Shown here: positions 1 to 27,373 of the stretch, in pieces | Layout: every line of letters starts with the position of its first letter | Numbering within the stretch: position 1 is the stretch's first letter | Virus record (IMG/VR): IMGVR_UViG_3300025570_000054 | Location: 1-33,943 of that record | Source of the DNA: a virus | Reading direction: 5' to 3' (one strand) | DNA length: 33,943 nt | Position numbers and translations under genes: made by a program | Notes under the pieces: model-generated | What the model was told of the DNA's origin: nothing | What the model saw: only the letters and a program-made list of their open reading frames with translations | Database searches by the model: none

Positions 1-286
1 CTTTTCTTTCCTTGATTAAATCAAGTATTCCTGCATTTGTACAATGATTTATTGCAGTATCAGACCCTTCAACTGGTTCAGTAAAAATAACTTTTATAGT
101 ATTATTTTTTACTAACTCTACAATTTTGTCAACATGCTGCCGAGTTTGATCATAACCTATTAGGTATACGGCGCCTGGCACAAAAGTATGTTTTTCAAGG
201 TCGTAAAATTTATCATCTACAAAGGGTGTGAGTTCTTTAACCACTCCGCAGTTGACATCAACAATTATTTTACGATTGCCGAGCAT
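1..286 (-). CDS. Partial unknown protein, N-terminal 95 residues, cut by the window edge
   Basis: An open frame starts with ATG at 286 and runs off the left edge without a stop. The protein begins MLGNRKIIVDVNCGVV and continues through a segment rich in alternating hydrophobic strands and helices (AVYLIGYD, then IKVIFTEP). That pattern would suit the first half of a Rossmann-like alpha/beta fold, but I recognise no family. The start lies 17 bases inside the 3' end of the radical SAM gene, so the two are probably translationally coupled and belong to the same operon. Only a weak GAG-type ribosome site precedes the ATG. Given its neighbours it may take part in the same envelope or glycan modification cassette; that is inference from position only. 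Confidence 0.6.
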   Translation of the reverse strand, partial: MLGNRKIIVDVNCGVVKELTPFVDDKFYDLEKHTFVPGAVYLIGYDQTRQHVDKIVELVKNNTIKVIFTEPVEGSDTAINHCTNAGILDLIKERK

Positions 287-3775: not shown

Positions 3776-4040
3776 CAGTTGGTGGTATGCCGTTGCTGTG
3801 TCGATCGTTGGGTGTATCTATATCTTGATACATTCTTTTTTCTTGTGCAGTTAACTCTTTATTGGCCTTGTGCGGAATATTCTCGTCCATCACATGATGC
3901 TTGGCAAAACGATGTGGTTCATCTTCAACTAGATTTTTATCAACACCGTGTTGTAGTGCAATTGCTTGTTGTCGATGAATAGCATTTTCTTGTTTTTGCA
4001 AACGCTTGCTGTGTTTAAATTTGTCTTCTTCTGTACTCAT
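3768..4040 (-). CDS. Small highly charged phage protein
   Basis: This 90-residue protein is mostly hydrophilic: a Lys/Gln-rich helix-forming N-terminal half (KRLQKQENAIHRQQAIALQ), a PHRFAKHH segment, and a C-terminal part with EKRMYQD and RHSNGIPP. From memory, small phage proteins with the same PHRFAKHH and QEKR-type order usually carry a CGNPxCxxC cysteine knuckle between the two; here that place reads MDENIPHK and has no cysteine. If the resemblance is right, this copy has lost a metal site. The ribosome site is the best in the cassette: GGAGGT five bases before the ATG, inside the last codons of the preceding glycosyltransferase-like gene, with which it shares an ATGA stop/start overlap. 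Confidence 0.68.
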   Translation of the reverse strand: MSTEEDKFKHSKRLQKQENAIHRQQAIALQHGVDKNLVEDEPHRFAKHHVMDENIPHKANKELTAQEKRMYQDIDTPNDRHSNGIPPTDV

Positions 4041-6930: not shown

Positions 6931-7004
6931 TTTATATTTCCCTTTGTATTAGTTGATCAATTTCAACGCGAATAATTCTCGCTGGGTGATTTTAACCATT
7001 ACTG

Positions 7005-7030
7005 TTGTTAAAATTAATTAATTTTAACAA
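7005..7030. repeat. 26-bp perfect palindrome overlapping a stop codon
   Basis: TTGTTAAAATTAA is followed directly by its exact reverse complement. It covers the last five codons and stop of the 426-aa fibre gene. As RNA it could fold into an AT-rich hairpin, but there is no built-in loop and no following U run, so it is not a convincing terminator. It could be a weak terminator, an RNA-end stabiliser or a protein-binding site. Confidence 0.7.
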
Positions 7031-9090: not shown

Positions 9091-12000
9091 TTATTTGCCC
9101 TGTAAAAACCTTGCGGCATCTGTGTCAGTGTCTTGCAATGCAACGCCGTTGCTTGGTGTTCCAACGCCTGGCGCATACCATGTTACCCCGCGGCGAACCA
9201 AAATAGTAACTTCTGAACCTTCTGCAGGGGCAGTATCAAACAATACAGTTACAGGGTTTTCGTTGGTAACTGTGTATCCCGCTGTTTGCAATGTGCCGCC
9301 TACATACACTTCGATTGCTTCGATATCAACAGTGCTATCAGCAGCTGACACATCAATCAGTGCAGCAACAAACGATGTTGTGACTCCGTCGCCTAAGTTT
9401 ATACCAGACTCTAACGGATAAGTCACGTTGGACACAACGTAGTTTTGATACTGTGATTCTAACAAATTACCACGACTGATGTTGTAAACATCTGTGTTTA
9501 TGGCATGACTGGCTGCACCTGTTCCTGCTGTGCCGCGACGTAGTCCACTGACAGTATTGGCAACAGTATCACGGTTACGGTACATAATTCTCTCACCATT
9601 TATAGTTAATAGTCCCCAAATATTACTAGTTAAATTTGGTTGGTTAAGTGCGGCAGCATTATAAACATGAATTGTATCGTCTGTTGCACTCAGCGCTTGA
9701 GTCAAATATGTTGTAGTTGCAGTAGTGATTCGATATGTTGCTTGTACCCCGCGCATGTCTTGGAATATGCGGAATGCCATTGCCAATGGAGCAACACTTG
9801 ATGTAAACTCTGTAATCATCACAGTATCAGTAACTGATAACGTGTATCCACCTGCTAATATAATTTCGTTGTCGACAATTGTATAATCAACGTTGTTGAA
9901 TATCGCACGTCCGTTTAATGTAACAAACAATCGATCTGGATCTATATTTGTATGATCTAAGAACAAATTGTTGAGTGACACTGCTTGTGTTGCACTATAG
10001 TCAAATGATCCCGGCTGGTTGATTACTGTACCAACATCAAAATTTAAATTATCAAACGGTTCTGCTAGCGTTTGTGTTCCCACAACAGGACCAACATACA
10101 CTTGAGTTAATAAATCTTGTTGGCGAGTGTCATTCCAGCTTGTTACAGAAACAGTTTCGCCATTGGCTGGTACAAAACCACCATACTGATTAAACAACAG
10201 TTGGTCGCCAGTTACTACTGCTTGTGCATTGGTTGTTACACAAATTAAAATCTTTTCGCCATCCGATGGGGTGGTGGCAAATATCACAGAACGTGGCGTT
10301 TCAGTATCATACGGCTCTACCAAGTAATCAATATTAAGAATCAACGGAACATCGTTCATGTACACACGAACTTCGTTATCAGCAATCAATGCTTGACTAA
10401 ATCCCAATCGTTGTGGCAACAAATATTCACTTGTGCCATCAGCCAAATATTGTGCGCCTGCAGCAGTTCTGACACGGCGTCCGTCGATGGTGACGTACAC
10501 GTTGTCTGGGTTGGTGTATGCCATGCTGTTGGTCAACGTGTAACTGTATTGCCCAGTAACACCTGCAATATTTTGAGTAACCGGAACTGACCAACTGTAA
10601 TCTATTGTTGCACTATCTTCACTCAATGTTGTTAATCCAATGGCTGCAATCATCAAGTAATCATCAGCAGTATAAGTGTCAATAAATGTCAACAATGTGT
10701 TTATACCGTCTTGTGCATAAGTGTAATTGGTAATCAAGTTGCCGTTGACAAAGATAGCAAATTCTTCAATCAATGAGAACTGCACCGGCACTACCAATGA
10801 GTTGCCAACTTCGGCGCCGTTATACGAACGCTTGAGCAACTGGTTTCCGCCTCCAATTTCATATAAAGAAACTACAATTGTATCGCCAGCGGTTGTTTCG
10901 CTGTTGAATACTGTAACAGTGCTGGCTGCCCAGTCGACTGTGTAATCTACATCACGGTGTAATAATAACCCAGTGGTTTGATTTGTCACAATCATAGTGG
11001 CAGGCACTTGTGCCACTCCGGCAAAACTAAATGTTTCTGGAAGTGTTGTTACATTGTATTTGATAACTTCAATTCGGAAGCCATGACCGTCACGTGCCCA
11101 ATCAGCGCCAGGTGTTGTGTAAACACGCAAATCAAGTGTATCAAACTCGCTGCCGGGTATTAATTCTTCCGGGGCATGACTTGAATATGTGTCAATGTAT
11201 TCGCCGCCGTCGGCGTTGATGCTGGTGGCCAACGTTCCCAAGTACGGATCGTTATATGGACTTTCGTAAATGGCATCCAATATAGTTTGATCGTAAGTTG
11301 GGCGTCCTTCTGGGCCGTATGTCAAGTTGTCAAAAGGTACTGTGTCAAAAGGTGCCAAGTCAAATCCTGGGTATTGGTCGTATCCCACTCCAAACATTTG
11401 TACACCTGGATATTCAACTCCATCAATCAGCAATGGTAAACTCAATCCAGGCTCGTTGGCAGTAGGAGTATACAATCCCATAGTACGATCAACACCACTT
11501 AACAAAGCAGGGTTAACTATTGTCCACTGATCTGGGTCAAAGGTGTCACTTTGAATACCTGTACTGTCATCGGCGTTGGCTTCCCATACACGATTTAAAT
11601 AACGTACCTGAGTGCCGTTGTCGTAATTTGCGCCTGCTTGCCATTCAACAATATCAGATGAGTATTCGTATCTATCGTACTTGATTCTGGTGGTGATCTG
11701 ACGAACTAGATCATTGCCCATTGTTGCTGCGGCTGCGGCGCCAGTTCCGTTGCCACCAACGAATGTTATTATGGCTGTGGTTGTATAACCGCTGCCATAA
11801 TTGTCAATTGTGACTCCAGTTACTTGACCTGCTCCGTTGATTATAGCAGTCATTTCTGCTTGTTCGACACAATTGCCGGTTACTGTGATTGTTGGTGCAA
11901 CTGTGTATCCAGCACCACTGCTTGTAATTACAACGCTTTGAATACTCAATGTGTAATTTGCATACCATTCGTCCCACGGAGATTGTGCCCACAATGTTGA

Positions 12001-15000
12001 ATTGGAAAGAGTATCAGCATTGAAGTTTGTATTGCCGACAGCCGTTGATTGCGTGTATGGCAACAGAACTGGACTAATGAATTCTGGGACAGTCAATGTT
12101 GCATCCCAGTATGCTGGTACATCAAAGTCAGTTACTGAACCGGGGTAAGCATCGTTACCGTTGTAAGACAAGTTAAACTCACGAATTTGTGTATGATAAG
12201 GTTTAACTTCTTGTATATAGTTCAATACAAAATCTTGGTTGTCTTGATTGTAAAACTGGTACGGTAACAAATCACGGATTTTATGATCAACATCAATCAA
12301 ACTTGTTTTAATTAACCATTCTGGTGCTGCAACTTCGCTCATTATGTATTCAAACATCAGTGTCAATGAACGGTTGCGCTCAATCAACAACTCGTTCACA
12401 AACAACTGTTCGTTGATTGCTTGAATAATTTTACGAGTTTCGATCACTGGTTCTTGGTCAAAATACTGGGCATCAAACACTTCAACATCAAATCCAAAAT
12501 TGCCAACAGTATAATTCCATAATGACTCGCTGAATTCAATGGTGCCATCTTCTAACCCTACGCGATCCCACCCAAGTTCAGTGCGTTGATAAATTTCAAA
12601 CTTACCTGTTCCCAGAATGTTCGACACTGTAACACTAGCGCCAACTGGTGCTGTAGTTAATGTCAGTGTGGATAGGCCAGAATAGTTTGATACTGTGGCC
12701 ACTGGATTTAGATTTTTATTATAACCTGGCAAGTACCAGTTGATATAACTCCAGTAACGACGTGTATCGTAGTTTTGTACACGAATTAACGTTAATGCTT
12801 TTGATCCAATTAACGATCCTGTGCCAACTTCGTAAATTGTCCAGAATCCAGAATTGCTCGAATCTGACGATACCAAATACTTGTATCCATAAGGTACAAT
12901 AATTAAATTTTGATAACTTAATTCATCTAAGTCTGCAACACGCTTGTTCCAGGCGCCTGAACTTGCTGATGGTTCTGGCTCTCTGCTGTTGAGCAACGCA
13001 AAACTCTTTGTTTCACTAATGGGATACTGTGCCAATACAGTATTGGCACGACCAAGATAATTTTCCAATGCCGAGAAGCGATTGACAAACATGCTTTGAC
13101 GCGGACGGAATTCAACACCATACCGCATTGCTGGACTTAGTCCAGCGTCGGGCACGTCAGCACCAACTGTGTTGACACCAGAGAAACTGTCTTGTAATTT
13201 TAAATATAAGTTATCGCTTAAGAAACTGTTTTCGCGTCCTGCGGCAATTAATTCATATTCCTGGTGCACATTGTCATTGTTGACCAAACGATCATATTCA
13301 ATGTGAAGGATTGTGTCTTGGGCACTTACCAAATCAAGTACGTTGTATATTGCAACAGTGCTCGCATCCAATGGCGCAAGATATGCAATACCGCTGGCAC
13401 GCGGGTATTCAATATAGTTTGCAATAGCAGTAGTACTGAGTTTTTTACCTGCTACAGTATTGACTGTAGAAATATTTCTTACCCAGAAATAATAACGAGT
13501 AGCAAAAATATTTTCAGAATTTAATTCAGCACGAGTGGTATAACTCAAGAAACTCAACGGAGTTCCTGGGCCTGTATAGTTGGCAGGTGTTACATCACTT
13601 TCTACCCATTGATAAATGTCAATGCGGCTGCCTGGGAATGTTTGACCCCAACGACGGCTTGCGTAAACAATGTCGTCTTGATTTGGATCAATGAAACGAA
13701 CTGAGTTAGTGTCCCACCAAATTTCACCAACTCTTGATGCGCTCCATGGATTACCAACATTGCGAACTGGGCCATTGCTATAATTTGCAGGATCCACTGC
13801 GCCAATGTAATCAATATTTTCACGAGCAACACCAAGTATTTTGCCTTGCAATGGATTAAAGAAATCCAAATAACTGGTAACCTGAGATTCTAATTTATCG
13901 TACATGTAAACAGAGTTTAACAACGCAACATCTACCACTGGTGTTTGCTGATGTTTAACTGCCCATGCTTGTGTGCGGTCAGGGTTGTCAAATACAACAA
14001 CTTGACCAAAATTAGCAAACTGGCTATCTTCTAAATCGTTGCCGGGCGCACCAACTAGTAGTTTACCTGTAACGTAACTAAGACCTGTTCCGTAGTTGTC
14101 GAGCTCGTTGGTTGTGTCGTTGTACAACTGTTGGCCAAATACAAACTTGCCAGGGTCAGTAACTGTGTCGGTTGCACTTGGCAAATAATCAAATGTGTAA
14201 GCTACACCACTTTGTGTAACTGTAGTTGAAAATACTGTACTGCGGTCGTCAAAGTAAGTTGTATCGGCATCAAATGTAACTGGCTTGTACATGTTGCCGT
14301 TTGGAGCACCGACTACCAAGACAAGCGCAGTCGAATCAACTGCAACGCTGGATCCAAAACGGGCAAACTGGCTTGGGTTTGGACTTGTTATAGTTTGTGT
14401 GTATGAATAGTTCACAAAACCAATATCAGCAAATGCTGTGCCTGTTAGGCCAGGCAATACATTTAATTTTGTTCCTGGCAATGCAGCAGCAGAGTTTATA
14501 ACACTGATAGTCAATATGCCGGATACCACACGAATTATAGTTCCGTCGGCTGGTACGCTAGCAAATGTAACAATGCCAGTGCTGTTGTTGTATGTGTAGT
14601 TGACATTTAATGTTTGCAACACAGTGCCAGCATATACAACTGGCGTATAACTGTCATATTGTGAATATGTTACGCCAATGTCGTATGTTTTTGTAAGACC
14701 GTTGGCAGTAAAGTACAAATCGTCGCTTACAGAAGCTGTAACGTTTGGAATACCAATTCCGTTGTTCAAAGCGGTAATTGCCGAAACTAGTCCAGCCACA
14801 GTATTGTTAGGAATTGCTGGTACAGCAACTTCGTAATTGTTAACACGGATTGTATCACCTGCTGTCAATACTGGGTTTGCAATCGGTGATGAAATTATTC
14901 CGTATACACGAGCTTGGTTAACGTTACGCTGTACTGCGCCAGCGTCATTGTTGACGTTTTGCGGAGCACCAGAGTATACGCTACAATTTTGCGGACATAA

Positions 15001-18000
15001 ATCTACATCCCACCCAAGTTGTGCTTGGTAAATTGGCGTGTTGTCTGCTGTTTGATTTAGCGTATCCCAGTCTGATGTAGTTACAATTTGTTGTACTTGA
15101 TTGAATATGTTGCTTTCAATTTCAACAATGTCGCCAACTGCCAATGTAACAGCACTGGTCAACACAACATCATTGCCAACTACATTAAACCCACCGTTGA
15201 TGTATTGTTCGGCATTGGTCAAGAATACGTTATTGATTAATACACTAACAGGTGTTATCCATCCTGATGGCAATGCAAAAGTTGTTGTGGCAGTTTCGTT
15301 TGTGCCAATTTGATATCTTAATACGCTACGATCGTAAACATATGTGCTGCCTGATTCTAACGTACTGACAGTGGTGGTCGGCGCACCAATTACAACTTGA
15401 CGTCCATCAGTTGATGCAGCAACACTATAACCAAAGTTAGCACTGCCGGCCGGGCCGTCAATTTTATCAACGTATTTAAAATATGTGTTGGCAGATGCCA
15501 TAATGATGGCGCTAGGACTTGGATTTGAACCAGCTTCGAATGTGACTGTTGTGCCAGTAAATGTATAATCGATGTAAGGACGCTGTACTTCGCCGTCAAC
15601 TGTTAATGTGAACGAGTTGGTAGTTGTTGCAGTATACAAATACTCTGCTAAATCAAAGTTAGTTGTGTTGTTGACACCAGACCCGGCAGGTGTAAATGTC
15701 ACAATGCCACCAACAGTCACAGTATCAACTGTGATAACCAAATCATTGGCCGGGGATGTGCCACCGCCGATGGTGGCAGCATTGATTGTGAGAGTGTCGC
15801 CGGGTGCATAACTTAATCCAGGAGCAGTCAATGATACAACATATGTTCCGCGGGTGCGGTCAACTGTAAATGTTGCTTGTGAACCGGAACCAGACGTAGA
15901 ATCTTGTGTTACGCCGTAGTAAACTTGATTGTCAAGTTGAACCGAGTCTCGACGTGCAATTACAATTGTTAATCCAGAATCAGGAGCAGTAGTAAACAGC
16001 ACTGCACTTGCGCCTACTGTGTAATCAATACCTTCTGTTTGTGCAGTGTTGTTGACAACAACTACCAATTGTCCTGGCTGCGTATAATCAATAATAATAT
16101 CGTCTGCGTATGTGAATTGTTGTGTTACCCCATTTGCTGTGTACGTAACTGACTGCAATGACGAATCAACACGCCCGTATGCATAAACTGCATTTTCAGC
16201 AGGTGCACCGACATAAACAATACGTTCGTCTTTGCTTATTGCAACTGACGTACCAAAACTTCCTGCACTGGCAGCATAGTCTGGTGCAACTAGCAACTGA
16301 GGCTGTGTAAAAACACCTGACTCGCTTCTATTAATAATTGATGCATATCCAACACCACTGGCACTGAGACTTGCTCCTGCTACTGCCCATGTTTGATTGC
16401 CAAAATCAATATCGTTTCCGTAACCCAATGTTCCGGGTGCAGTCAAGAACAATAAATTATCTTCTATGTATGTTCCTGTTGTGCCACGTTGATAAGGATA
16501 TATTGCGCCTGTTGCTGTACCAGTTGAATCGTTGAAATAAGCAGGTGCCCCAATCAATGCGCCAAGATTGTTGTAAGTTTGTGCAACGCTTGTGCCGTAA
16601 CTGGTATTTTCTACAGGTATAGATTGTGATAAAGACTGGCTATCGCCAAATACATCTTGTTTTTCTAATACTTCCCATAACCCGGCGCCGTTGTTGTCAA
16701 CCCAGGCCAATGCGCCCGGCACCAAGTCATTGGCGTATGATAACGAGCCAATATCACTTGCTTGCGATACACGCATTGTGTCAAGATAAAATGCTAAACC
16801 AGATCCAGTTGCAGTGGTTTGACCACCGTTAGGGAAAGCATATGCCACTGTTAATGTAGTTGGCTTGGGTGTTGTTAACACGCGGTATACACCATTAAAT
16901 GATTCGTTGAAGAAGCGAACAATCAACAAATCGCCTCGATTCAGATTGTGTACTGCCGAGAATGTAACTACACTTGTTCCGTCAAGGTTATCACTTACCC
17001 GATTAATTTTTCCTGGTGTTTGTGTTGCACGATATACATTCCAGTCAAAGCTGTTTGTTTTGGCTACCCAAATACGTGTGCCGTCACCGACATTGTCAAG
17101 CTCGGCTGCAATAGTGCTTGGGTCATCTAATGAAAATACTGTGATGTCAACATCGTCAATGTTTACATAGCCTGCACTTGGCAAGGCTGTATCTGTAACC
17201 GTGGACGTTGTTGTAGGGAGGATATTTGGCGATGTTAATTTATAGCTTTGACTCCATACATCATTCAAGAACACAGTTTGATTTGCTACACTTGTTTCGC
17301 CAACATTGATAACTTGGATTGTCGAAGGATCACTCTGTAAAAATGATTCGTTTAGTTGCAACTCAAAGTAGCTACGGTTTGCGTTGGCGCCATACGTTCC
17401 ACGACGAATAGCCCAGTTTTCGTAAATTTGATAATCGGCAACTTCCTTGCCAAGGTTTGCACCTGTGAATATGTCAGTGGCAAGCGTTGTGCCTTTGGTA
17501 CTGATAAATTGTTGGTATAAGTTAACTTGACTTGTGTCGTCAAGATTCAACGCAACCATATAGTCGCGTGGCTGGAATCCGATCAATCCATAACTTAACA
17601 AATCATTGTCGCCCTCTAAGTTAGCTGTTTGTGTATCGTAACTGTTGGCCAATTGATCTGCTTTGTTGGCAATGTTGGGCAACAATCCTTTTTGTATTTT
17701 GGTATAGTCACTCTTGATCCAATCAGAATACGCAAACTCTCTTTTGGGTTGCACGATTGTTTGCGCAGACCAGTAGTTGTTTTTAAAATTTACAATTTCG
17801 CCTTTGGCGTACTTGCGATTTGGTATCCAACTCTGCACGTTGTCTTGGTTAAGAATAAATCCTTGTGCATTTAATGTTCCTTCCCACTCGGTGGTGGTCA
17901 TTGCTACAACGTTGATACGACTTTGTCTTGCAGCAGTTGTTGGGTTATATATCAAGTCGTTAAAAATACTAACGTTGTCGAGAATTACAAGATTTTCGTA

Positions 18001-21000
18001 ACTTGTATAGCGCAAGTTAGCATACGCAATTGCTCGGCCGTCGGCGCTGGTTACACTGAATCTATTTTCTAAACGTTCAATAATTAAATTTCTAGCATCA
18101 AACGGCTGACGGTTTTGATCCAACATTATATTTTCAATGTTTTGCATCATGACATTGTCAATGACCGCACCTGGTTGTTCAGCAATCAACTGTGTCGCTG
18201 CCGGGTTTAAATTAATTAAGCTATTGACACCCCATCCTTGGTTGGCCCAATATAAAAATTCTCTGGCCATTTGTTGCCAATCAAGCGGATATCCGTTTTC
18301 TCTGTCTTCACCAAATATTAATCCTTGGGTGGTCAAGTATTGACCGTAACTCAACAAAAAGTCAACCATTGACGATTGATTTGTGAATACAAACCCGTAT
18401 GGTACTTGCACAACATCTGTTGTGTATTGTTTTGGTACACGAACACTGCTGCCGCCTGATGCAACTGTTTGTAATTGACCATTGGTGCGACTGGCCAAAA
18501 TATTAAAATACGGGTCAGTGGTGCTGTATCCAAGAACAGCATATCCATTCTCAACTGCTTGCACAATAACAGCACTGTACGCTACAGAACTAAACGGTAC
18601 ATTTTTGTACAATAATAAATTGTAGCTTTCGTCTGGCAATAGTAAACTTGAGTTCTGACTATCAGGGCTAGAACGCTCTGTGTATACTTTGAGGTATTGT
18701 TTGTCTGTAAAGCTGGCTGTTCTCCAGCACAAGCGAACATCGAGACTTGCTAATGCATCTTCTAATACATTAGTTGAGTTGATGCCCAACTGTTGATTGT
18801 AATCTACAATCCAGTTAATGTAACTTGCTTTGCTAACAGGCGTAATAGTTCCATTGGTGGCAGCAGACACATGTCCGCCATACACTTGAACGCCATTGGC
18901 ATCTAATCTATAACGTCCGTTGTATAGATATTGCTCAAGTTCGGCATTGTATTTGTAAAGATCGCGGTCAGCAAACAAGCTGAAAAATTCTGCAGGGCGT
19001 GTTAACGCTAGTAAACGCATAACAGCAAATGGATAGCTACTGCTTGTCCACCAGGCAGCTTCGGCAGGTCCGCCATCCCCGACTACCCAACTCTTACGGA
19101 AAGCATTAGGATCATAAGACCCAACTACACTTTGTAGTGGTGACAACAATGCACCTTCTGATCCAGAAGGAATAAAATATGTTGACAAGTTTGGACGTTT
19201 GTATTTTTCAAGTACATAAGGTCCTGCAGGATCGGCAACATATCCTGCTTGCATATCATCCCATAGCACCAAGTTATCACTTGTGTAAGGCACAGGGCCG
19301 TAACGGCCGGTCCACCATGCGGGCTGTTGACTAAATCCAACCATTTCCCATGGTGTGGTAGCAGGAGTTAATGTATCGTAAAAGTCTCTGTAAATTCCAC
19401 GCCATGCACCAAGCAACGGTTGGTTCTTTTGTTTGTCTCCAGCCTGGCTGTAATTGTATGTAAACTCGTTACTACTGATGTATTGTTGAGTTTTATAATC
19501 TATTTTGTTTTGGCCAACCCAGGTCAAGAAACTTTCACCAAGTATGTTTGTAATTTCGGCAGCAGTGTAATCAGTTGTACGGAAGTAGCCGGGAATTACA
19601 TCTTCGGCAACAAGCGGCACAGGATTGCCTTGTGTTTTTAAGTTGTTAAAAATTCTACGTTCGAATTCTAACAGTACATCGTCGCGCATGTCGCCAAAGG
19701 CAGCGGTGATACTGCCGTCATGGCCGCGGATGACCATTGTGGGATTGACATAGTTTGTGTCCAGGAACATTTCAGGTTTAAATGCTGGATATAAACCTAA
19801 CTTGGTGGGAGTATTGGGAACAAAACTGCCAGTGGTTGTGGTGTACTCACGGATAGTGACAATGTCACCAACGGCCAATGTTGCAGATACGTCAATACGT
19901 GGTCCATCTGTGGCCACTGTATAATCGTGGTTCAATGTTAATAAATTGCCGTTTAGATAAACCAACACACCCAAGAAGTTGGCAGATGTAAATGTGTATG
20001 TTTGAACAGTATCAAACACACCAGTGGTAATTGGAGTTACGGTATGGTCAACTTCTGTATACACACTTCCACTTGGAATCATGTCGCTGTAGAAAAAGCT
20101 GTTTACATTTGATTTGCCCAAACTCATGTCAGTGATGATAGAATCAAGAATCTGACTTGTTGTATATGTGCCCCATTCACTTAGAATAGAATTTTCTAAC
20201 ATTCTATTCTTGAATTTATTGTATTCTCTGTCGTTGAACTCTAATGACTTAAAGATATTATACTCGGGTTCTCTCATAAAGAAGCCGGCCAGCGTCATTG
20301 GAGAACTTTGTTGCAATATTGTTGTGCCATACCGGCTTATATTGCCCAAGTCTCGGGTATTGTTAGAGCCGTTGATGCTGCCAGAGAAATTTATTAGATT
20401 TTCTGCAATACTTTCGTAATGTGTTCTGACTGTGCCGAGTGTGAACGAAGGACTGTTTGCGTTGAACGGGTTATTTTCTAAGTTAACAGGAACTTCATAA
20501 AATCCCGTTTTGCTAACTTGGTCACTTAACACCTGTACTTCAATTACAGAGTCAGGAACATAAATTTTACTCAGCGTAATTACCGTTGTGGTTGCATTTC
20601 TTGTAACTGTGTAATCTTGGGGCAACACAAACTCATTGGCCACATACAACAAAATTGCAGGGACTACATTGTTTTCAGGAACAACAATGTCTAATTGTAA
20701 AGAGCGTCCGTCATAAACAAACTGAAACTGTTGTCGTATTTGACTAGGTGTGGCAGCAACTTCCCATCCAATTTTGCGTGCATATAAAACACGATCAGCA
20801 TATTGATACACAAAACCATCACTGACATTGCCAACAACGCCAGTGGTACCGGTTACATAATTAAATGTATCAGTATATAAATTGTTATCAAACACAATGT
20901 CGCCGATGTTGGCAAGACTCAGGTAACGAATTGGAAATTCTAATACAGGGTCTGCTGTTCCTGTGCCTGTTGCATAGCTGAATAACTTACTGCCAACAAA

Positions 21001-23532
21001 AGTAGTACTGGGGTATGATGTTTGATTGCTGAGACTTACCCCAGCAGAATCAAACACATCAAACAAAGGTGCCTGATTGGCAGAAGTCTTTTCTTGCGCC
21101 AGTATCCAATTGACACCGTCAAAGTAATAACTCAACCCTTGTTGAGTTATTCCGCTTAGTGCAACTACAGTTTGATTAACAAGCACGGTAGAATCATACG
21201 CAGGTGTTAAATTTATAATAGGTTGGTTAATCAATGGATCAACTGTGTCAGGCTCAATAAATGTCACTTCGTATATTTTGTTACGAACTTGTAAGTCTGA
21301 GTCATTGGCAAAAATAATGCGGCTACCGGTGATAAGTGTATACCCGTCGGTGCTGTACCCAATTGAGCCGTTGATATTGCTAAATGCGTCAGTTGAATTA
21401 AAATCAACAATATTAACTGGCTGTTTGCCTTGTGTACCGAATCCAAATAATTTTGTGCCAGCATTGAATTCTAAAATTGGGCGCTTGGCTCTGAATTCAT
21501 TGTTCAGCACTGCTACAGTATTGTTATATGCGGCACTGGCATTGATAACATCAATGTGGAACCAACGGTTAGAGCGTGTCCACGCATTTAAATCAGGACT
21601 GGCACGATTAATTGTCAAATAGTCAGGAACCAGCGGAGCATTGTCTGTGGCATCATAATTTCCAACGTCGTACCCAATGCTGTCGTACGGAACACTTGCA
21701 CTTTGTGTATATGTTTCGGGAGTAATAAAATCAGCAACTGGTAATAATTTAATTGCAGTTCCTACACCTTCGACATAGTATTCTTGGTTTTCGTAACTGG
21801 CAGGAAATGTTGTTCCACGGAATTGCACTTTAAGACCATTGGTAAACTTTACTCCGGTTGGACTGGTATATGTAGGTTGTCCAATGATGTCGCTGATAAA
21901 AATTGTATCAGCCTGCTCTTGGTCAATTACTCGTATCTGTCCAAATATTTCTGGGTCAGTGCCGTCCTGGTAATATAAAACATCTTTAATTGCTGTCAGC
22001 AAAGGAATCTGTTCAAACACACCGTTGGCATTTTTATACCATTCGGTATTTGAGTATTCAGTTCCAAACAATATGTTAAATTTGTTCAAATTATCAACAG
22101 ACAATACGCTGTTCAATCTAATGTATTGTTGGCCGTCTGTTGTGGTAACATATTCAATTCTCCATACACTGTAACGTTGTGTCTGAGTCAACGGCGTTGC
22201 TTGTGCAAACGGAATGCTGTCAAAAGAACCGGCTCCGGCAACGCCGCCGCCTGTGTTGATCAACGGATCAAATTGTGTAGTAACATCCCACCCGCCTTGG
22301 TCAGGATCGGCATTATTAATAAATGCAACTGTGCGGCCATCTAAATTGGTAATGCCATCGATGCCACTTGGATTTTGTGTCAAAAACTCAGTTAAAAATT
22401 GATTATTAATTTGTTCAAATTTTAAATTAGTTATTAAATCAACTGATCCGATGCTAGGTAGTGAATAATAAAAACTTTGTGCAGTTGCTGATGGAACATC
22501 AAATGTGACTGTGCCAAGATCTTCACCGTTGTTAGATACACCCAACACGTCTCTACTGCTGATATTGGGTGCATACGGAAGAGTTCCAGTGACACCGGGT
22601 TCTGCTTGAATCCAAAAGCCAGGGCCTGTTCCAGGTGTGCCGTCCACAATTGCAAATGTTCCTTGCATGTTGAATTGCGTTTCGCTGGCATAGTACAAAT
22701 TATCTGGTGCGTCCTGTGGAACAGTAAATGTAATATTTCCAGTTTGTGATCCGTTGCGACTTACGCCTGTGTTGTATTGATCGCCTGTGCCTTGGCTAGG
22801 AGCAGATTTAATCCAAAAAGGCGATGCTACATCAAGGTTTAAGTTGAAGACATAAGTGTTGCCACGAATCAGTGTCAATGCCGGATTTGGCACATAGTCA
22901 ATTACGTATGCAGATATGCCAGTTGACGTGACACGAAAATTTACCGATTCTTTATTATTTTGTGCTACATTAAATGTGTAGTTGCCGCCTCGAACAAGAG
23001 TAATGGCCGGATTGTTTGTGGTGTAGTTAGAAAAAGTGTATACGCCATTTGCTCGTGTAACTGTATAATTGGCTGTTAGTGGAATAGCAGTGGCGCCTAC
23101 GTCAACAGATGACGGCCCTGCTGGTAACCAATAATATTGACTAAAGTTTACAAACTTGTCAAAGTCAACTTGTGGATTCCATGTATAATACTGGCTGGTG
23201 TAAAGTCGATCGCTGTTGTCAGTAAACGCCCCTTGAGTGGCCAGCGCATCACTGATGCCAGGATATGTAATGGCATCTTCGACTGTGTCACTATCAGTCT
23301 TCAACATAACAACACCGGGTTCTAACTGATAGTTTCGGCGGTCAGTTGTTGGCTCGACTACATATTGACTGCTGGCGTCAACGCCCGGGCCAACACGACG
23401 GCCAACAAAACCTTGTGTCTTTTTAAATTTTGGTTCTTGAACCAGTTGATCTAATGTAGCAGCCAAAAACTGCTTGTTTGTAGATGTTTGAAATATTTCA
23501 GGTAAGAAATCTACCGTTCTCACTTTTGCCAT
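9091..23532 (-). CDS. Giant baseplate/tail structural protein, 4813 residues
   Basis: An uninterrupted frame of 14.4 kb starts at ATG in a TAATG overlap with the gp6 stop, seven bases after GGAG. The N terminus (KVRTVDFLPEIFQTSTNKQF) and segments such as SNRWFHIDVI (about residue 650), RGHDGS and RDDVLLEFERRIFNNLK (about 1265), WWTGRYGPVPY, and NYIQEVKPYHTQIREF (late) match, to my memory, very large structural proteins of environmental T4-like phages. Internal regions are: cupredoxin-like repeats (about 172-358), seven FG-GAP-type repeats (about 2305-3190), a pair of GsGYT repeats (about 3865-3937), and at least ten fibre-like beta modules, several in the last 650 residues. It follows gp6 directly, the place of gp7 and gp8 in T4, so it may build the wedge periphery and carry fibres. 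It ends AARFLQGK. No lysin motif was seen. Confidence 0.88.
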   Translation of the reverse strand: MAKVRTVDFLPEIFQTSTNKQFLAATLDQLVQEPKFKKTQGFVGRRVGPGVDASSQYVVEPTTDRRNYQLEPGVVMLKTDSDTVEDAITYPGISDALATQGAFTDNSDRLYTSQYYTWNPQVDFDKFVNFSQYYWLPAGPSSVDVGATAIPLTANYTVTRANGVYTFSNYTTNNPAITLVRGGNYTFNVAQNNKESVNFRVTSTGISAYVIDYVPNPALTLIRGNTYVFNLNLDVASPFWIKSAPSQGTGDQYNTGVSRNGSQTGNITFTVPQDAPDNLYYASETQFNMQGTFAIVDGTPGTGPGFWIQAEPGVTGTLPYAPNISSRDVLGVSNNGEDLGTVTFDVPSATAQSFYYSLPSIGSVDLITNLKFEQINNQFLTEFLTQNPSGIDGITNLDGRTVAFINNADPDQGGWDVTTQFDPLINTGGGVAGAGSFDSIPFAQATPLTQTQRYSVWRIEYVTTTDGQQYIRLNSVLSVDNLNKFNILFGTEYSNTEWYKNANGVFEQIPLLTAIKDVLYYQDGTDPEIFGQIRVIDQEQADTIFISDIIGQPTYTSPTGVKFTNGLKVQFRGTTFPASYENQEYYVEGVGTAIKLLPVADFITPETYTQSASVPYDSIGYDVGNYDATDNAPLVPDYLTINRASPDLNAWTRSNRWFHIDVINASAAYNNTVAVLNNEFRAKRPILEFNAGTKLFGFGTQGKQPVNIVDFNSTDAFSNINGSIGYSTDGYTLITGSRIIFANDSDLQVRNKIYEVTFIEPDTVDPLINQPIINLTPAYDSTVLVNQTVVALSGITQQGLSYYFDGVNWILAQEKTSANQAPLFDVFDSAGVSLSNQTSYPSTTFVGSKLFSYATGTGTADPVLEFPIRYLSLANIGDIVFDNNLYTDTFNYVTGTTGVVGNVSDGFVYQYADRVLYARKIGWEVAATPSQIRQQFQFVYDGRSLQLDIVVPENNVVPAILLYVANEFVLPQDYTVTRNATTTVITLSKIYVPDSVIEVQVLSDQVSKTGFYEVPVNLENNPFNANSPSFTLGTVRTHYESIAENLINFSGSINGSNNTRDLGNISRYGTTILQQSSPMTLAGFFMREPEYNIFKSLEFNDREYNKFKNRMLENSILSEWGTYTTSQILDSIITDMSLGKSNVNSFFYSDMIPSGSVYTEVDHTVTPITTGVFDTVQTYTFTSANFLGVLVYLNGNLLTLNHDYTVATDGPRIDVSATLAVGDIVTIREYTTTTGSFVPNTPTKLGLYPAFKPEMFLDTNYVNPTMVIRGHDGSITAAFGDMRDDVLLEFERRIFNNLKTQGNPVPLVAEDVIPGYFRTTDYTAAEITNILGESFLTWVGQNKIDYKTQQYISSNEFTYNYSQAGDKQKNQPLLGAWRGIYRDFYDTLTPATTPWEMVGFSQQPAWWTGRYGPVPYTSDNLVLWDDMQAGYVADPAGPYVLEKYKRPNLSTYFIPSGSEGALLSPLQSVVGSYDPNAFRKSWVVGDGGPAEAAWWTSSSYPFAVMRLLALTRPAEFFSLFADRDLYKYNAELEQYLYNGRYRLDANGVQVYGGHVSAATNGTITPVSKASYINWIVDYNQQLGINSTNVLEDALASLDVRLCWRTASFTDKQYLKVYTERSSPDSQNSSLLLPDESYNLLLYKNVPFSSVAYSAVIVQAVENGYAVLGYSTTDPYFNILASRTNGQLQTVASGGSSVRVPKQYTTDVVQVPYGFVFTNQSSMVDFLLSYGQYLTTQGLIFGEDRENGYPLDWQQMAREFLYWANQGWGVNSLINLNPAATQLIAEQPGAVIDNVMMQNIENIMLDQNRQPFDARNLIIERLENRFSVTSADGRAIAYANLRYTSYENLVILDNVSIFNDLIYNPTTAARQSRINVVAMTTTEWEGTLNAQGFILNQDNVQSWIPNRKYAKGEIVNFKNNYWSAQTIVQPKREFAYSDWIKSDYTKIQKGLLPNIANKADQLANSYDTQTANLEGDNDLLSYGLIGFQPRDYMVALNLDDTSQVNLYQQFISTKGTTLATDIFTGANLGKEVADYQIYENWAIRRGTYGANANRSYFELQLNESFLQSDPSTIQVINVGETSVANQTVFLNDVWSQSYKLTSPNILPTTTSTVTDTALPSAGYVNIDDVDITVFSLDDPSTIAAELDNVGDGTRIWVAKTNSFDWNVYRATQTPGKINRVSDNLDGTSVVTFSAVHNLNRGDLLIVRFFNESFNGVYRVLTTPKPTTLTVAYAFPNGGQTTATGSGLAFYLDTMRVSQASDIGSLSYANDLVPGALAWVDNNGAGLWEVLEKQDVFGDSQSLSQSIPVENTSYGTSVAQTYNNLGALIGAPAYFNDSTGTATGAIYPYQRGTTGTYIEDNLLFLTAPGTLGYGNDIDFGNQTWAVAGASLSASGVGYASIINRSESGVFTQPQLLVAPDYAASAGSFGTSVAISKDERIVYVGAPAENAVYAYGRVDSSLQSVTYTANGVTQQFTYADDIIIDYTQPGQLVVVVNNTAQTEGIDYTVGASAVLFTTAPDSGLTIVIARRDSVQLDNQVYYGVTQDSTSGSGSQATFTVDRTRGTYVVSLTAPGLSYAPGDTLTINAATIGGGTSPANDLVITVDTVTVGGIVTFTPAGSGVNNTTNFDLAEYLYTATTTNSFTLTVDGEVQRPYIDYTFTGTTVTFEAGSNPSPSAIIMASANTYFKYVDKIDGPAGSANFGYSVAASTDGRQVVIGAPTTTVSTLESGSTYVYDRSVLRYQIGTNETATTTFALPSGWITPVSVLINNVFLTNAEQYINGGFNVVGNDVVLTSAVTLAVGDIVEIESNIFNQVQQIVTTSDWDTLNQTADNTPIYQAQLGWDVDLCPQNCSVYSGAPQNVNNDAGAVQRNVNQARVYGIISSPIANPVLTAGDTIRVNNYEVAVPAIPNNTVAGLVSAITALNNGIGIPNVTASVSDDLYFTANGLTKTYDIGVTYSQYDSYTPVVYAGTVLQTLNVNYTYNNSTGIVTFASVPADGTIIRVVSGILTISVINSAAALPGTKLNVLPGLTGTAFADIGFVNYSYTQTITSPNPSQFARFGSSVAVDSTALVLVVGAPNGNMYKPVTFDADTTYFDDRSTVFSTTVTQSGVAYTFDYLPSATDTVTDPGKFVFGQQLYNDTTNELDNYGTGLSYVTGKLLVGAPGNDLEDSQFANFGQVVVFDNPDRTQAWAVKHQQTPVVDVALLNSVYMYDKLESQVTSYLDFFNPLQGKILGVARENIDYIGAVDPANYSNGPVRNVGNPWSASRVGEIWWDTNSVRFIDPNQDDIVYASRRWGQTFPGSRIDIYQWVESDVTPANYTGPGTPLSFLSYTTRAELNSENIFATRYYFWVRNISTVNTVAGKKLSTTAIANYIEYPRASGIAYLAPLDASTVAIYNVLDLVSAQDTILHIEYDRLVNNDNVHQEYELIAAGRENSFLSDNLYLKLQDSFSGVNTVGADVPDAGLSPAMRYGVEFRPRQSMFVNRFSALENYLGRANTVLAQYPISETKSFALLNSREPEPSASSGAWNKRVADLDELSYQNLIIVPYGYKYLVSSDSSNSGFWTIYEVGTGSLIGSKALTLIRVQNYDTRRYWSYINWYLPGYNKNLNPVATVSNYSGLSTLTLTTAPVGASVTVSNILGTGKFEIYQRTELGWDRVGLEDGTIEFSESLWNYTVGNFGFDVEVFDAQYFDQEPVIETRKIIQAINEQLFVNELLIERNRSLTLMFEYIMSEVAAPEWLIKTSLIDVDHKIRDLLPYQFYNQDNQDFVLNYIQEVKPYHTQIREFNLSYNGNDAYPGSVTDFDVPAYWDATLTVPEFISPVLLPYTQSTAVGNTNFNADTLSNSTLWAQSPWDEWYANYTLSIQSVVITSSGAGYTVAPTITVTGNCVEQAEMTAIINGAGQVTGVTIDNYGSGYTTTAIITFVGGNGTGAAAAATMGNDLVRQITTRIKYDRYEYSSDIVEWQAGANYDNGTQVRYLNRVWEANADDSTGIQSDTFDPDQWTIVNPALLSGVDRTMGLYTPTANEPGLSLPLLIDGVEYPGVQMFGVGYDQYPGFDLAPFDTVPFDNLTYGPEGRPTYDQTILDAIYESPYNDPYLGTLATSINADGGEYIDTYSSHAPEELIPGSEFDTLDLRVYTTPGADWARDGHGFRIEVIKYNVTTLPETFSFAGVAQVPATMIVTNQTTGLLLHRDVDYTVDWAASTVTVFNSETTAGDTIVVSLYEIGGGNQLLKRSYNGAEVGNSLVVPVQFSLIEEFAIFVNGNLITNYTYAQDGINTLLTFIDTYTADDYLMIAAIGLTTLSEDSATIDYSWSVPVTQNIAGVTGQYSYTLTNSMAYTNPDNVYVTIDGRRVRTAAGAQYLADGTSEYLLPQRLGFSQALIADNEVRVYMNDVPLILNIDYLVEPYDTETPRSVIFATTPSDGEKILICVTTNAQAVVTGDQLLFNQYGGFVPANGETVSVTSWNDTRQQDLLTQVYVGPVVGTQTLAEPFDNLNFDVGTVINQPGSFDYSATQAVSLNNLFLDHTNIDPDRLFVTLNGRAIFNNVDYTIVDNEIILAGGYTLSVTDTVMITEFTSSVAPLAMAFRIFQDMRGVQATYRITTATTTYLTQALSATDDTIHVYNAAALNQPNLTSNIWGLLTINGERIMYRNRDTVANTVSGLRRGTAGTGAASHAINTDVYNISRGNLLESQYQNYVVSNVTYPLESGINLGDGVTTSFVAALIDVSAADSTVDIEAIEVYVGGTLQTAGYTVTNENPVTVLFDTAPAEGSEVTILVRRGVTWYAPGVGTPSNGVALQDTDTDAARFLQGK
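9094..11052 (-). repeat. Tandem fibre-like beta modules at the giant protein's C terminus
   Basis: At least five modules of roughly 70-110 residues share the order: strand, (I/V)xVNGxxx, a Tyr/Asp-Tyr-Thr (DYT) strand, a TVTF-like strand and a final DxVxI strand. Examples are HRDVDYTVDWAASTVTVF, EEFAIFVNGNLITNY, DRLFVTLNGRAIFNNVDYT and IEVYVGGTLQTAGYTV. The pattern resembles the T7 tail-fibre N-terminal/beta-sandwich modules. Further copies lie earlier in the protein, for example near LVYLNGNLLTLNHDYTV (about residue 1190) and VVVVNNTAQTEGIDYTV (about 2490). Confidence 0.6.
11718..11940 (-). repeat. Two GsGYT beta repeats inside the giant protein
   Basis: SSGAGYTVAPTITVTG and DNYGSGYTTTAIITFVGG are two copies of a short beta repeat, each followed by an Ala-rich strand (AEMTAII; GAAAAAT). 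Repeats of this type occur in phage fibre and structural proteins. Their purpose is probably to form a small beta solenoid or hairpin stack. Confidence 0.6.
13970..16620 (-). repeat. Seven FG-GAP-type repeats (beta-propeller candidate) in the giant protein
   Basis: Seven copies of a YG/FGxSVA ... GAP pattern can be read in order: SYGTSVAQ...LIGAPAY, GYGNDIDF...AVAGAS, SFGTSVAIS...VYVGAPAEN, NFGYSVAAS...VVIGAPTT, QLGWDVDL...VYSGAPQN, RFGSSVAVD...LVVGAPNG, and NYGTGLSYV...LLVGAPGND. FG-GAP repeats form seven-bladed propellers in integrin alpha chains and related proteins. Between blades 3 to 6, fibre-like beta modules are inserted, so the repeats are spread over about 880 residues. Confidence 0.75.
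22460..23020 (-). repeat. Cupredoxin-like repeats in the giant protein, copper ligands absent
   Basis: Residues about 216-297 read LTLIRGNTYVFNLNLD, then SPFWIKS, NITFTVPQDAPDNLYY and FNMQGTF. This is the order of a cupredoxin-like domain (RGxTYxF, HPFxI, FTVPxDAPxxLYYxC, HxxM). A weaker copy follows (GFWIQAEPG, TVTFDVPS, FYYSLP) and a fragment precedes it (ITLVRGGNYTFNV). The usual His and Cys ligands are replaced by Ser, Ala and Gln. Confidence 0.6.
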
Positions 23533-26500
23533 TAAATTACTCCGCTGCCTGGGGCAGTTCTAAGGTTAGTACTTGTTAATGCTTCGATAACTTGAATGTC
23601 GACCACTGTGGCAGCGTTGACAAATATCTCGTTAGGTGCTGATCTAATTTCGTATAGATCACCAAAACTCTTTTGTGGGTTTAGCGGAACCAATACAACA
23701 GAACTCACAATGTCACCCATTTGTTGGTGCAAGTATGATGAAAGTTCTGAAAAGTAAAATACATCACCAAAGTCCCAATTTTCAATTGCAAAATACGCAT
23801 CTAAGTTGGCTACCACAGTGCTTTTAATTTCACTGATAGATGCAGTTGAATTACTAGCACGAATAACTTTGATAGTTGCTCGTAATTGTTCGGCTGCTTT
23901 GGCACCGAACAATGGTTTAAACTTCACAGGATTCACAATCATGTTGTCCGAGATCATTTTATAATTTTGTAATCCTGCATACTCTGTACTTAGCTGATCA
24001 ATTGTGGGGGGTATTGGCTCTGCCACTGTGTTGGTAGAGTCTTGAATATAATTTCTATAAGCAGTATAATAGTCTTGCGTTACCACATACAAATCAATGA
24101 TGTTTGTTGAGCCAGGATCAATGCGATTGGTCAATGCACTGTTGTGACGATACTGAAAGTATAAATCTTGTCGACCAACACGAGTTTGATATTCTGTTGT
24201 TGCTACCAATGCAGTTGTTCCAGATGCGGTCAAACTTAAAATATAAAATAACTTGTCTGTGTACGCATAGAAAACTTGTCCAACAACGTATTGAGCTTTT
24301 TCTAATGTGATATCATCTAATGTAGCATACTGGTCATTGACAATTCCTGATGCAACCAAAACATAACGCTCAAGATTATCAAAGTCCACAATCTTTTGGA
24401 AGAATACCAATTTGGTAGTTGCGGCCACATCTGGAGCAACAATTTCGTCAAAGAAATCTGGATTATCAGGAACGCCATCGGCATCTTTGTCTTGCCACGA
24501 TACCAATACCTGATAGTCATCAACATAGCCGTCTGACAGCACTGGTTGTGCAATAATACGCATTGTAACATCGCTGTCGAGTGGCAAGTTTGAATCAGGG
24601 CGGCTATTTGTTTTCAACACTCTTACAAAATCACGAATAACTGTTCCTGTGCGACTGTCGTACACTTGCTCGTCGCCGTAGAAGAAAAATCGTGTTTCGA
24701 GAACGCTGCCAAAGTAGTAGTTGAGTGCTCGTGTTGTCACTGTGTACGACTCGCCATCTGTGACAAACTGTACGACCCAACTTGCATCAAGGTTGGCACC
24801 CGACGTGTCTTGTGCATAATCCTGACTCCAGGCAGCATTGACTGCGAGATTTGATGCCGTGATCACATACCAAGTGTTGGTTAAGTTATTGTAACCTAGG
24901 CCAAAATTGCGGTATAGTTCAATTTGTGACCGTGCATCTTGTTTAACAGTTGTTCCTAAATCAGTTACAAACAAAGGAATAACTTCAACACATTGTGCAT
25001 TTGTTGGAACATAGTTGTTGAGCACAACTGGACCTAGACCATTGGTGAAGTTGCCTCGGCCTTGATTGGTTCCATCAATATATACCGCAGTAGCAGAAGC
25101 CCAAATAGTCAATTTTTCGTCTGCTCTTGTGGGTGTGCCCAATACCAATCTATTGTTGGCATCAAAGTAATAACCAGTTGGGGAGCTAAATTTAATCAAA
25201 CTGCCAATTTGCACATATTGCATATTGTTGCTGGAATATGTGCCCACTGGCACAGGATTCCCGGCGGTATTTTTAAAATAACCAGTTGTCTCATTGGCCA
25301 ATGTTGTACTTTGATTCCAACTGACTGCCAACGCAGTTAATGATGGTCTTGGAAAATTTGCATAATAAAATTGCTTGGCAGCTTCTGTTGCTATCAACGG
25401 CTCGACTCGATTAGAAAGCACATCACTGATGTCATTGGTTGTTAACCAGCTAAACAAAAATGTTGGCAATTCGTTTGATTCGTACAACGCACCGTCGCTG
25501 CCAAATGTATTGGTAGAACTGTACTTGCCGGTGTTGTCAACCAAGTCAAGATAGCGACTTGTACCAATTGATGCACGGTTGAGTGCTTTGGATTTGATAA
25601 TTGAATTGTAGGCAGTAAACGGAAAGTTGTTGTAGTCTTCGCCGTTGACCATACGGTTTTGCGTATAGTAACGAGCCGGGGCACGTTGCTTGATTTCATC
25701 AATCGTTTCACGAGCAAGTGCATTGCTCACTGGTGCTGTGATGCCACAAGTAACTGTCAGTGTTTCTAATTGGCCAGTGCGGCTAACATAACTGATACTT
25801 AAAATCACATTTTGCATTTCTTCTGGATTGATAATATACTGCAATCCATTTGATGAACGAACATAAGAACGGAAAAATCCCACAGGAATTTCGGAAAAAA
25901 CGCCGTCGCCAAAGTTCAATGTAATTTGATCATTTGCTCTACTGGCAACTGAATATATAGGACGCAGGTTTTCTTGTTGTTCGACCGCGGCAGTGTAAAC
26001 GCTTTCGACATAATCCCATTCGCGGGCAATATTCCCAACGTTGTCCAACTGATACAACCAGCGATCTGTGTTGTTTACACCTTCAATGTTGACGTTGACT
26101 GCGCGGTTGGCAATGCGCTCAGGCAAATTAAAATCTTGATTCTGTAATACGCCCTGTTTGAAATAAAAGAAGAAACCAGTGTCAGCAGACGCAAAACCCA
26201 ATTGGTCGTTTCGGAACAGCATGCCAAACTGCCCGTTGGGCTGTGGACTTGGTTCGTAAACATACTCTACACCTGCAGGCAACCCAGTGGCAGTGGCACT
26301 CACAGCTTCAAATGGCATGTTGACACCATCAACCACTGCACTAAACGGAATCACAGGAAGGAATCCTGGTACCAAGTTGACTGTGTATTCATCTGTGCGA
26401 ATACCTTGAATTGTTGTTCTATTGCCAGGGCGGCCAACACGCTGAGTGTTTACCAGTGCAGAATTTATAATGGCATTGAATTGTTCTTGCCAGTCAAAGT

Positions 26501-26945
26501 TTGTAGGGTCAGCCCAGTTAACAGTAATGTTGGCCAAGTTGATGCCGTTGTAGTCAATGACATTTTCTGTTGTTTGTATTGAAAATACTTTGAGATATCC
26601 GTTGGCTTCGGTGTTGCGCTTTGGGGTGTAACCTACCAAGTTTGCAAGTTTGACCACGCTGTCACGACGTTCAGCAGTGTCTAAATAATTTTCGCGAGTG
26701 TTTAAATCTGTACGGAAGGCCAATGACTGGCCCATAAATGCCATTACATCTAGTATGGCAATAAATTCTGATGATTCAATGTAGTCATTGAATGTTTCTG
26801 GATAGTACAATCGTACATAATCAACAAAGCTCTTGCGGAGAGTTTCAAAGTCATAGCTTTGGAAGTCAGCTTCGCGGTAAGTTTGATAGATTCGTTTCCA
26901 ATCTTCAACTCCAAATACTGCGGTTTGTCTAGTAGTTTTTGCCAT
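23532..26945 (-). CDS. 6: Baseplate wedge protein gp6 (baseplate J-like)
   Basis: The 1137-residue protein has the T4 gp6/baseplate J start: FQSYDFETLRKSFVDYVRLY, then NDYIESSEFIAILDVMAFMG and RTDLNTRENYLDTAERRDSV, followed by LVGYTPKRNTEANGYLKV. The QRAPARYYTQNRMVNGEDYN segment in the middle is another hallmark of the family. gp6 dimers form the inner ring that links the baseplate wedges and undergoes the sheath-triggering change. T4 gp6 is about 660 residues, so this version is much longer, with a large beta-rich C-terminal half. It lies directly after gp25, its wedge partner, and is start/stop coupled to the giant gene. A CATAAATA element and a GGA ribosome site precede it. Confidence 0.92.
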   Translation of the reverse strand: MAKTTRQTAVFGVEDWKRIYQTYREADFQSYDFETLRKSFVDYVRLYYPETFNDYIESSEFIAILDVMAFMGQSLAFRTDLNTRENYLDTAERRDSVVKLANLVGYTPKRNTEANGYLKVFSIQTTENVIDYNGINLANITVNWADPTNFDWQEQFNAIINSALVNTQRVGRPGNRTTIQGIRTDEYTVNLVPGFLPVIPFSAVVDGVNMPFEAVSATATGLPAGVEYVYEPSPQPNGQFGMLFRNDQLGFASADTGFFFYFKQGVLQNQDFNLPERIANRAVNVNIEGVNNTDRWLYQLDNVGNIAREWDYVESVYTAAVEQQENLRPIYSVASRANDQITLNFGDGVFSEIPVGFFRSYVRSSNGLQYIINPEEMQNVILSISYVSRTGQLETLTVTCGITAPVSNALARETIDEIKQRAPARYYTQNRMVNGEDYNNFPFTAYNSIIKSKALNRASIGTSRYLDLVDNTGKYSSTNTFGSDGALYESNELPTFLFSWLTTNDISDVLSNRVEPLIATEAAKQFYYANFPRPSLTALAVSWNQSTTLANETTGYFKNTAGNPVPVGTYSSNNMQYVQIGSLIKFSSPTGYYFDANNRLVLGTPTRADEKLTIWASATAVYIDGTNQGRGNFTNGLGPVVLNNYVPTNAQCVEVIPLFVTDLGTTVKQDARSQIELYRNFGLGYNNLTNTWYVITASNLAVNAAWSQDYAQDTSGANLDASWVVQFVTDGESYTVTTRALNYYFGSVLETRFFFYGDEQVYDSRTGTVIRDFVRVLKTNSRPDSNLPLDSDVTMRIIAQPVLSDGYVDDYQVLVSWQDKDADGVPDNPDFFDEIVAPDVAATTKLVFFQKIVDFDNLERYVLVASGIVNDQYATLDDITLEKAQYVVGQVFYAYTDKLFYILSLTASGTTALVATTEYQTRVGRQDLYFQYRHNSALTNRIDPGSTNIIDLYVVTQDYYTAYRNYIQDSTNTVAEPIPPTIDQLSTEYAGLQNYKMISDNMIVNPVKFKPLFGAKAAEQLRATIKVIRASNSTASISEIKSTVVANLDAYFAIENWDFGDVFYFSELSSYLHQQMGDIVSSVVLVPLNPQKSFGDLYEIRSAPNEIFVNAATVVDIQVIEALTSTNLRTAPGSGVI

Positions 26946-26998: not shown

Positions 26999-27373
26999 TT
27001 ATGCGTAGCTTGCGCTGGCGGTTTGTTGGTCGAAGTACAAAGATAAAAATTCAGTTGTTTGCCCTGGAACCAACATCAGTTCAATTTCGATCAATATACC
27101 ATTCAGTTGCGGGTACATGTTGGCAGATTGCAAATAAATTCTTGGATCCAAGCTGGCTACTCGTTGTATTTCTGCTAGTATGGCACGTTCTGTGTCTTGT
27201 GTTTGATTTTCAAATATGTAACTCCATATCATGGTTCCGTACCCAGGACGGCCAACAAGTTGCCCTTGTGTTATATTAAGTGCATTTAATAGATCACGCT
27301 TGACCAACTCAAAATCTACCAAAGTAAATTTCTTTGTTTGTCCTATTGTGTTGAAACCTCTGAATGTTGTCAT
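26999..27373 (-). CDS. 25: Baseplate wedge protein gp25
   Basis: The 124-residue protein matches gp25 in length (T4: 132) and pattern: DFELVKRDLLNALNITQGQL, then RPGYGTMIWSYIFEN, a helix with AILAEIQRVASLDPRI, and a C-terminal beta pair GILIEIELMLVPGQ. gp25 is the small core subunit that joins the gp6 wedge to the first sheath disc and is related to TssE of type VI secretion. The family's EPR motif reads DPR here, with the acidic residue kept as Asp. The gene is 19 bases after the 444-aa gene and followed by a 53-base gap with a late-promoter-like element before gp6. Confidence 0.92.
   Translation of the reverse strand: MTTFRGFNTIGQTKKFTLVDFELVKRDLLNALNITQGQLVGRPGYGTMIWSYIFENQTQDTERAILAEIQRVASLDPRIYLQSANMYPQLNGILIEIELMLVPGQTTEFLSLYFDQQTASASYA

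Follow-up and report, generated by a model that had tools for sequence, protein, structure and literature searches.

A predicted integrin-type seven-bladed propeller with inserted modules in a giant jumbo-phage protein encoded at the gp7 position

Jumbo-phage baseplates bear giant proteins of unknown purpose, and the locus described here poses that puzzle in a specific form: what is a run of FG-GAP-type repeats, the repeats of integrin alpha chains, doing in the middle of such a protein? The window, by which we mean the whole stretch of DNA analysed, is a 33.9-kb viral contig (33,943 nucleotides) with nearly every gene on the minus strand; its features are collected in Table 1. In the direction of transcription, the gene order includes a hub/lysozyme-like protein, a gp25-like protein, a gp6-like protein and then the giant protein. 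Since T4 gp7 comes after gp6, and the giant gene of the window directly follows the gp6-like gene, it occupies the gp7 gene position. Homology to gp7 was not detected by hhalign with a single T4 sequence as the comparison (probability <1%). Gene order, together with PHROG and Pfam matches, points to a putative place for the giant protein in the baseplate, where a location at the edge is presumed, as is the copy number of the propeller-bearing protein. The homologue in phage PA5oct is annotated as having been found by mass spectrometry.

Several neighbouring features were recorded in addition. A radical SAM domain protein (270-1694) has relatives among other radical SAM proteins of phages (phrog_14086). 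Fibre-like proteins are encoded just downstream of the giant gene (5938-8294), and one of them (7014-8294) shows a weak, sub-threshold match to the Peptidase_G2 autoproteolytic domain. Residues 198-297 of the giant protein (22642-22941) match proteins of Prochlorococcus phages P-SSM2 and P-SSM5, the former annotated as tail-fibre-like.

Table 1. Coordinates of the features in the window (aa, residues of the giant protein)
Feature	Residues (aa)	Position	Strand	Match or remark
Giant baseplate-region protein, 4813 aa, bears the propeller	1-4813	9091..23532	-	phrog_10938 virion structural protein, E=0
gp6-like baseplate wedge subunit, 1137 aa, directly upstream of giant gene		23532..26945	-	phrog_10646, E 5.8e-278
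gp25-like baseplate wedge protein		26999..27373	-	PF04965, E 2.9e-7
N-terminal scaffold part	1-2238	16819..23532	-	large stretches common to cultured jumbo phages, ~21-36% identity
C-terminal scaffold flank	3181-3823	12064..13992	-	common to cultured jumbo phages
Predicted propeller region with inserts	2293-3193	13954..16656	-	VIA-align model range 33..933 vs integrin alpha
Blade 1	2312-2363	16444..16599	-	
Blade 2	2371-2414	16291..16422	-	degenerate repeat
Blade 3, strands A-C	2426-2454	16171..16257	-	
Blade 3 C-D insert	2455-2684	15481..16170	-	modules M1, M2, M3
Blade 4, strands A-C	2700-2736	15325..15435	-	
Blade 4 C-D insert	2737-2809	15106..15324	-	module M4
Blade 5, strands A-C	2839-2872	14917..15018	-	
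Blade 5 C-D insert	2873-3041	14410..14916	-	
Module M6	2930-3008	14509..14745	-	nested in blade 5 insert
Blade 6	3059-3136	14125..14358	-	
Blade 7	3147-3195	13948..14094	-	
C-terminal module	4362-4431	10240..10449	-	related to insert M1, E 8.9e-7
C-terminal module	4714-4778	9199..9393	-	related to insert M1, E 4.5e-8

Seven FG..GAP-type motifs lie at aa 2312, 2371, 2426, 2700, 2839, 3059 and 3147 of the giant ORF, all of them inside the interval 13970-16620 to which the initial annotation had assigned seven repeats. Pfam FG-GAP_2 (PF14312) matched the giant protein with 56.3 bits (cut-off 23; E=3.5e-15), three stretches being individually significant. When each repeat was searched with an HMM built from the other six, five proved independently significant (repeats 1, 3, 4, 6 and 7, recovered at 1.1e-4, 2.2e-7, 1.4e-8, 1.2e-4 and 5.7e-4, respectively), repeat 5 was weak (E 0.07) and repeat 2 was not recovered. 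Repeats 2 and 5 are thus degenerate, and their probable standing as blades rests on conservation and predicted structure. All seven motifs aligned across the 26 relatives first collected, save that blade 7 is missing from a truncated contig. When viral contigs were searched in two profile scans, 464 stretches proved to be relatives of the propeller region and at least 587 to be relatives of the C-terminal flank. The full set of seven repeats recurs, its order unchanged, in 124 distinct sequences; the non-redundant subset, which numbers 115 with the window included, spans 38-86% identity to the window. The repeats are therefore not a product of chance, and the count of exactly seven holds.

Structure prediction suggests how these repeats are arranged. 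AlphaFold2, given aa 2261-3240 and an alignment of 27 sequences, returned a single ring with the extra modules looped out (pLDDT 82, pTM 0.82). In VIA-align, integrin alpha propellers superpose on model residues 33-933 (best Z 38.1, to integrin alpha4; rmsd 2.8 Å over 358 aligned residues, 19% identity), with integrin alpha chains accounting for 50 of 50 among the matches listed and ~540 residues within that range falling outside the integrin-aligned core. The region is therefore predicted to form one closed seven-bladed ring, and the proposal of an integrin-type propeller gains support from structure prediction, fold comparison and conservation alike. Of the two outcomes that the initial annotation had named as refuting it, separate beta sandwiches and fewer than five significant FG-GAP hits, neither was seen. 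A PDB sequence-profile search with the propeller profile gave only a marginal match to integrin alpha-M (E 0.2), and BFVD matches include a UniProt 'FG-GAP repeat' entry from an uncultured tailed phage. The top Foldseek match, chain 9k09_U of cyanophage A4, was not accepted as a homologue (TM 0.11).

The giant protein abounds in beta-rich, fibre-like modules, which lends some appeal to the idea that each repeat forms a beta-sandwich fibre module of its own and that there is no single ring. We regard this as extremely improbable, given that AlphaFold2 and VIA-align give one ring across model residues 33-933 and that compact relatives carry seven repeats without large inserts. The propeller might instead be an enzyme, for example one that cleaves glycans, as do the active propellers known from phages K1F and phi92 (endosialidases cited in PMC4901313); this too is very unlikely, as the fold matches the non-enzymatic integrin propellers and Pfam gives only FG-GAP_2.

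The likeness to integrin alpha propellers extends to FG-GAP repeats, seven blades and a matching fold. Integrins, however, have DxDxDG calcium loops in several blades, whereas the window propeller has none, and only 2 of 126 sequences contain a candidate loop (one each). Lacking these calcium loops, the propeller works, if at all, without that chemistry. Some integrins carry an inserted domain too. In the window protein, blades 3, 4 and 5 each appear to have a large insert between strands C and D, a register worked out from the listed secondary structure and from what is generally known of the fold, not from coordinates. The C-D hairpin would be the outermost one and would lie on the face opposite the upper, ligand-binding face of integrins. 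Predicted structure, fold comparison and conservation thus bear out the suggestion that fibre-like modules are inserted between some blades, and the further suggestion that they project from the propeller rim was roughly right, the probable point of insertion being this outermost hairpin.

The inserted modules belong to a family of parts used elsewhere in the same protein. M1, M3 and M6 are mutually related, and between them they match modules at aa 1175-1228, 4362-4431, 4521-4560 and 4714-4778; none of the window's own inserts matched a known lectin or carbohydrate-binding module (CBM) in Pfam. M2 is missing in six relatives (L020, L022, L024, L027, L029 and L033) and M6 in 10 of 26. The spacing between blades 3 and 4 is bimodal (~195 or ~275 aa), as is that between blades 5 and 6 (~150 or 200-220 aa); blades 6 and 7 are separated by ~88 aa in nearly all sequences, and rare relatives (L086, L027) are longer between blades 1 and 2 or between blades 2 and 3. 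Modules thus come and go among relatives and the number of blades does not, so that the ring is constant and its decorations move.

The protein that surrounds the ring is more widespread than the ring itself. Nine cultured jumbo-phage homologues have both scaffold flanks (~21-36% identity) and the position after a gp6-like gene; the giant proteins of RaK2, GAP32, PBECO4, PA5oct and Atu_ph07 share these flanks and this place. Propeller blades were not detectable in any of the nine, even with an iterated blade HMM, which indicates that baseplate function does not in general depend on the propeller. The flanks are ~15-41 aa apart in RaK2-like phages, compared with 942 aa in the window. Unrelated material fills the same site in Salicola phage SCTP-2 (~390 aa) and in Atu_ph07 and Phosso (~1500 aa), and ~820 aa without blades lie between the flanks of contigs L244-L248. 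A hidden propeller or lectin fold, suspected by eye in the PA5oct and SCTP2 inserts, found no blade-HMM match in either, and the SCTP2 segment had no Pfam match.

With the PA5oct flank as query, 56 further contigs were found. Many of them encode a compact region of ~540 aa that has exactly seven blades and no large inserts; these distant relatives are a natural case of the comparison, proposed in the initial annotation, between the ring with and without its inserted modules. Others have only three to six detectable blades and longer gaps. In one subgroup (L207), nearly 600 aa lie between the second and third detected blades. A CBM_5_12 carbohydrate-binding module scores above the Pfam cut-off inside the L207 propeller region (L207:6698-10000). 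Weaker CBM matches were seen in L191, L235, L244 and L248 and in the PA5oct and Atu_ph07 homologues. Used as query, the flank of Vibrio phage 2.275.O retrieved no contigs, DNA and protein searches found no propeller in cultured phages, and no relatives were found in bacterial and archaeal genomes. For the scaffold, PDB sequence-profile searches gave chance matches only, and an AlphaFold2 model of aa 1236-2300 (pLDDT 50) was not used.

When a tree was built from the C-terminal flank, a single branch (SH-aLRT 99) had all 58 rows with a propeller on one side of it. This was a quick tree with a midpoint root only and several long branches; it therefore shows clustering and permits one origin, without separating gain from loss. 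A break separates blades 5 and 6 in the giant ORF of L052 and L134 (contig 3300032250_000760), for which sequencing error, a split gene or decay are candidate causes.

Conservation is unevenly spread over the ring. It is highest in strands A-C (0.70-0.77) and lowest in the D-A loops (0.48), the class situated on the ligand face of integrins; because loops vary in most proteins, the variability of this class is weak support for surface binding. Blade 6 and the C-flank that follows are among the most conserved parts. The B-C connection of blade 6 contains a conserved FD..TTYFD stretch that recurs in distant compact propellers (L188, L189) and is a candidate docking contact. Blade 5 (14917-15018) has a C-x3-C pair in its A-B loop, possibly a disulfide or metal site, that is kept in 116 of 126 sequences. 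In our reading of these patterns, the ring is anchored to the scaffold in the neighbourhood of blades 6-7, one face presents the variable loops, and blades 3-5 carry the modules that can be exchanged.

Together, these observations lead us to favour, with modest confidence, a wedge scaffold bearing a once-placed ring that displays exchangeable surface-binding modules around the baseplate. The giant protein would be a baseplate-wedge scaffold at the T4 gp7 gene position that, on the simplest account, received a complete FG-GAP_2-type seven-bladed propeller a single time in the history of the phage group. The ring would serve as a rigid platform, blades 3, 4 and 5 would bear beta-rich, fibre-like modules on their outer hairpins, and the likely job of the whole would be to display these modules, which most probably contact host-surface glycans. 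Such a role is likely because modules have been gained and lost while the ring stayed constant. We counted in its favour the kinship of the modules, the compact seven-bladed relatives, the single-branch tree, the CBM_5_12 module of L207, the D-A loop variability and the gene order. It draws on the repeats, fold, conservation, modularity and distribution observed or predicted above, from which we infer a binding function for the propeller. A more elaborate version, in which a large uncultured jumbo-phage clade has turned an integrin-like propeller in the wedge scaffold into an adhesion head whose specificity changes as modules, including nested insertions and carbohydrate-binding modules, are shuffled at blade hairpins, seems to us doubtful.

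Surface contact is our first choice, and fibre docking would be its serious rival. The propeller may be an architectural or docking part that clamps neighbouring wedges or attaches separately encoded tail fibres, with the modules acting as linkers or spacers, a proposal that we hold tentatively plausible. The conservation of blade 6 and the C-flank, and the recurrence of FD..TTYFD in distant relatives, are what a fixed protein contact would be expected to produce; the ring is kept in 124 distinct sequences, and the fibre-like gene with its weak Peptidase_G2 match lies just downstream. RaK2-like phages, however, have only those ~15-41 aa at the propeller site, so that docking does not require a propeller in general, and module turnover and the CBM of a relative suit surface binding better. 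Nature provides versions with and without the propeller, and with and without inserts, and their distribution on the scaffold tree is compatible with one origin. Adhesion and fibre docking by baseplate propellers thus become directly testable alternatives, the choice between them having also been left open for PhiKZ gp131. One of the giant proteins of jumbo-phage baseplates now has a defined central domain.

The initial annotation called a propeller in the baseplate periphery unusual, which was overstated because PhiKZ gp131C and phi11 Gp45 were already known as baseplate propellers (PMC4901313). In PhiKZ, a jumbo myophage, gp131C (PDB 4GBF) forms a propeller of seven blades at the periphery of the baseplate, its function unproven (PMC4901313). 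It resembles the window ring in blade number and in belonging to a jumbo phage, the folds of 4GBF and the window being compared by description only. It differs in being the C-terminal domain of another virion protein, whereas the window ring lies within a giant protein encoded at the gp7 position, is of the integrin/FG-GAP type and has modules inserted between strands. The phi11 Gp45 propeller is a receptor-binding protein for host recognition (PMC4901313), but it comes from a staphylococcal siphophage, is trimeric and has five blades rather than seven. Compared with Pfam FG-GAP_2, to which the match is significant, the window propeller has three large inserts of modules in addition, a nested one among them, and sits in a phage baseplate scaffold. 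Among the openly available papers searched, we found none that pairs FG-GAP with bacteriophage and propeller, with jumbo phage, or with phage baseplate or tail fiber. What is new here is the placement of a propeller in a giant wedge-position scaffold, and an invariant ring with nested module insertions that is distributed on a single branch.
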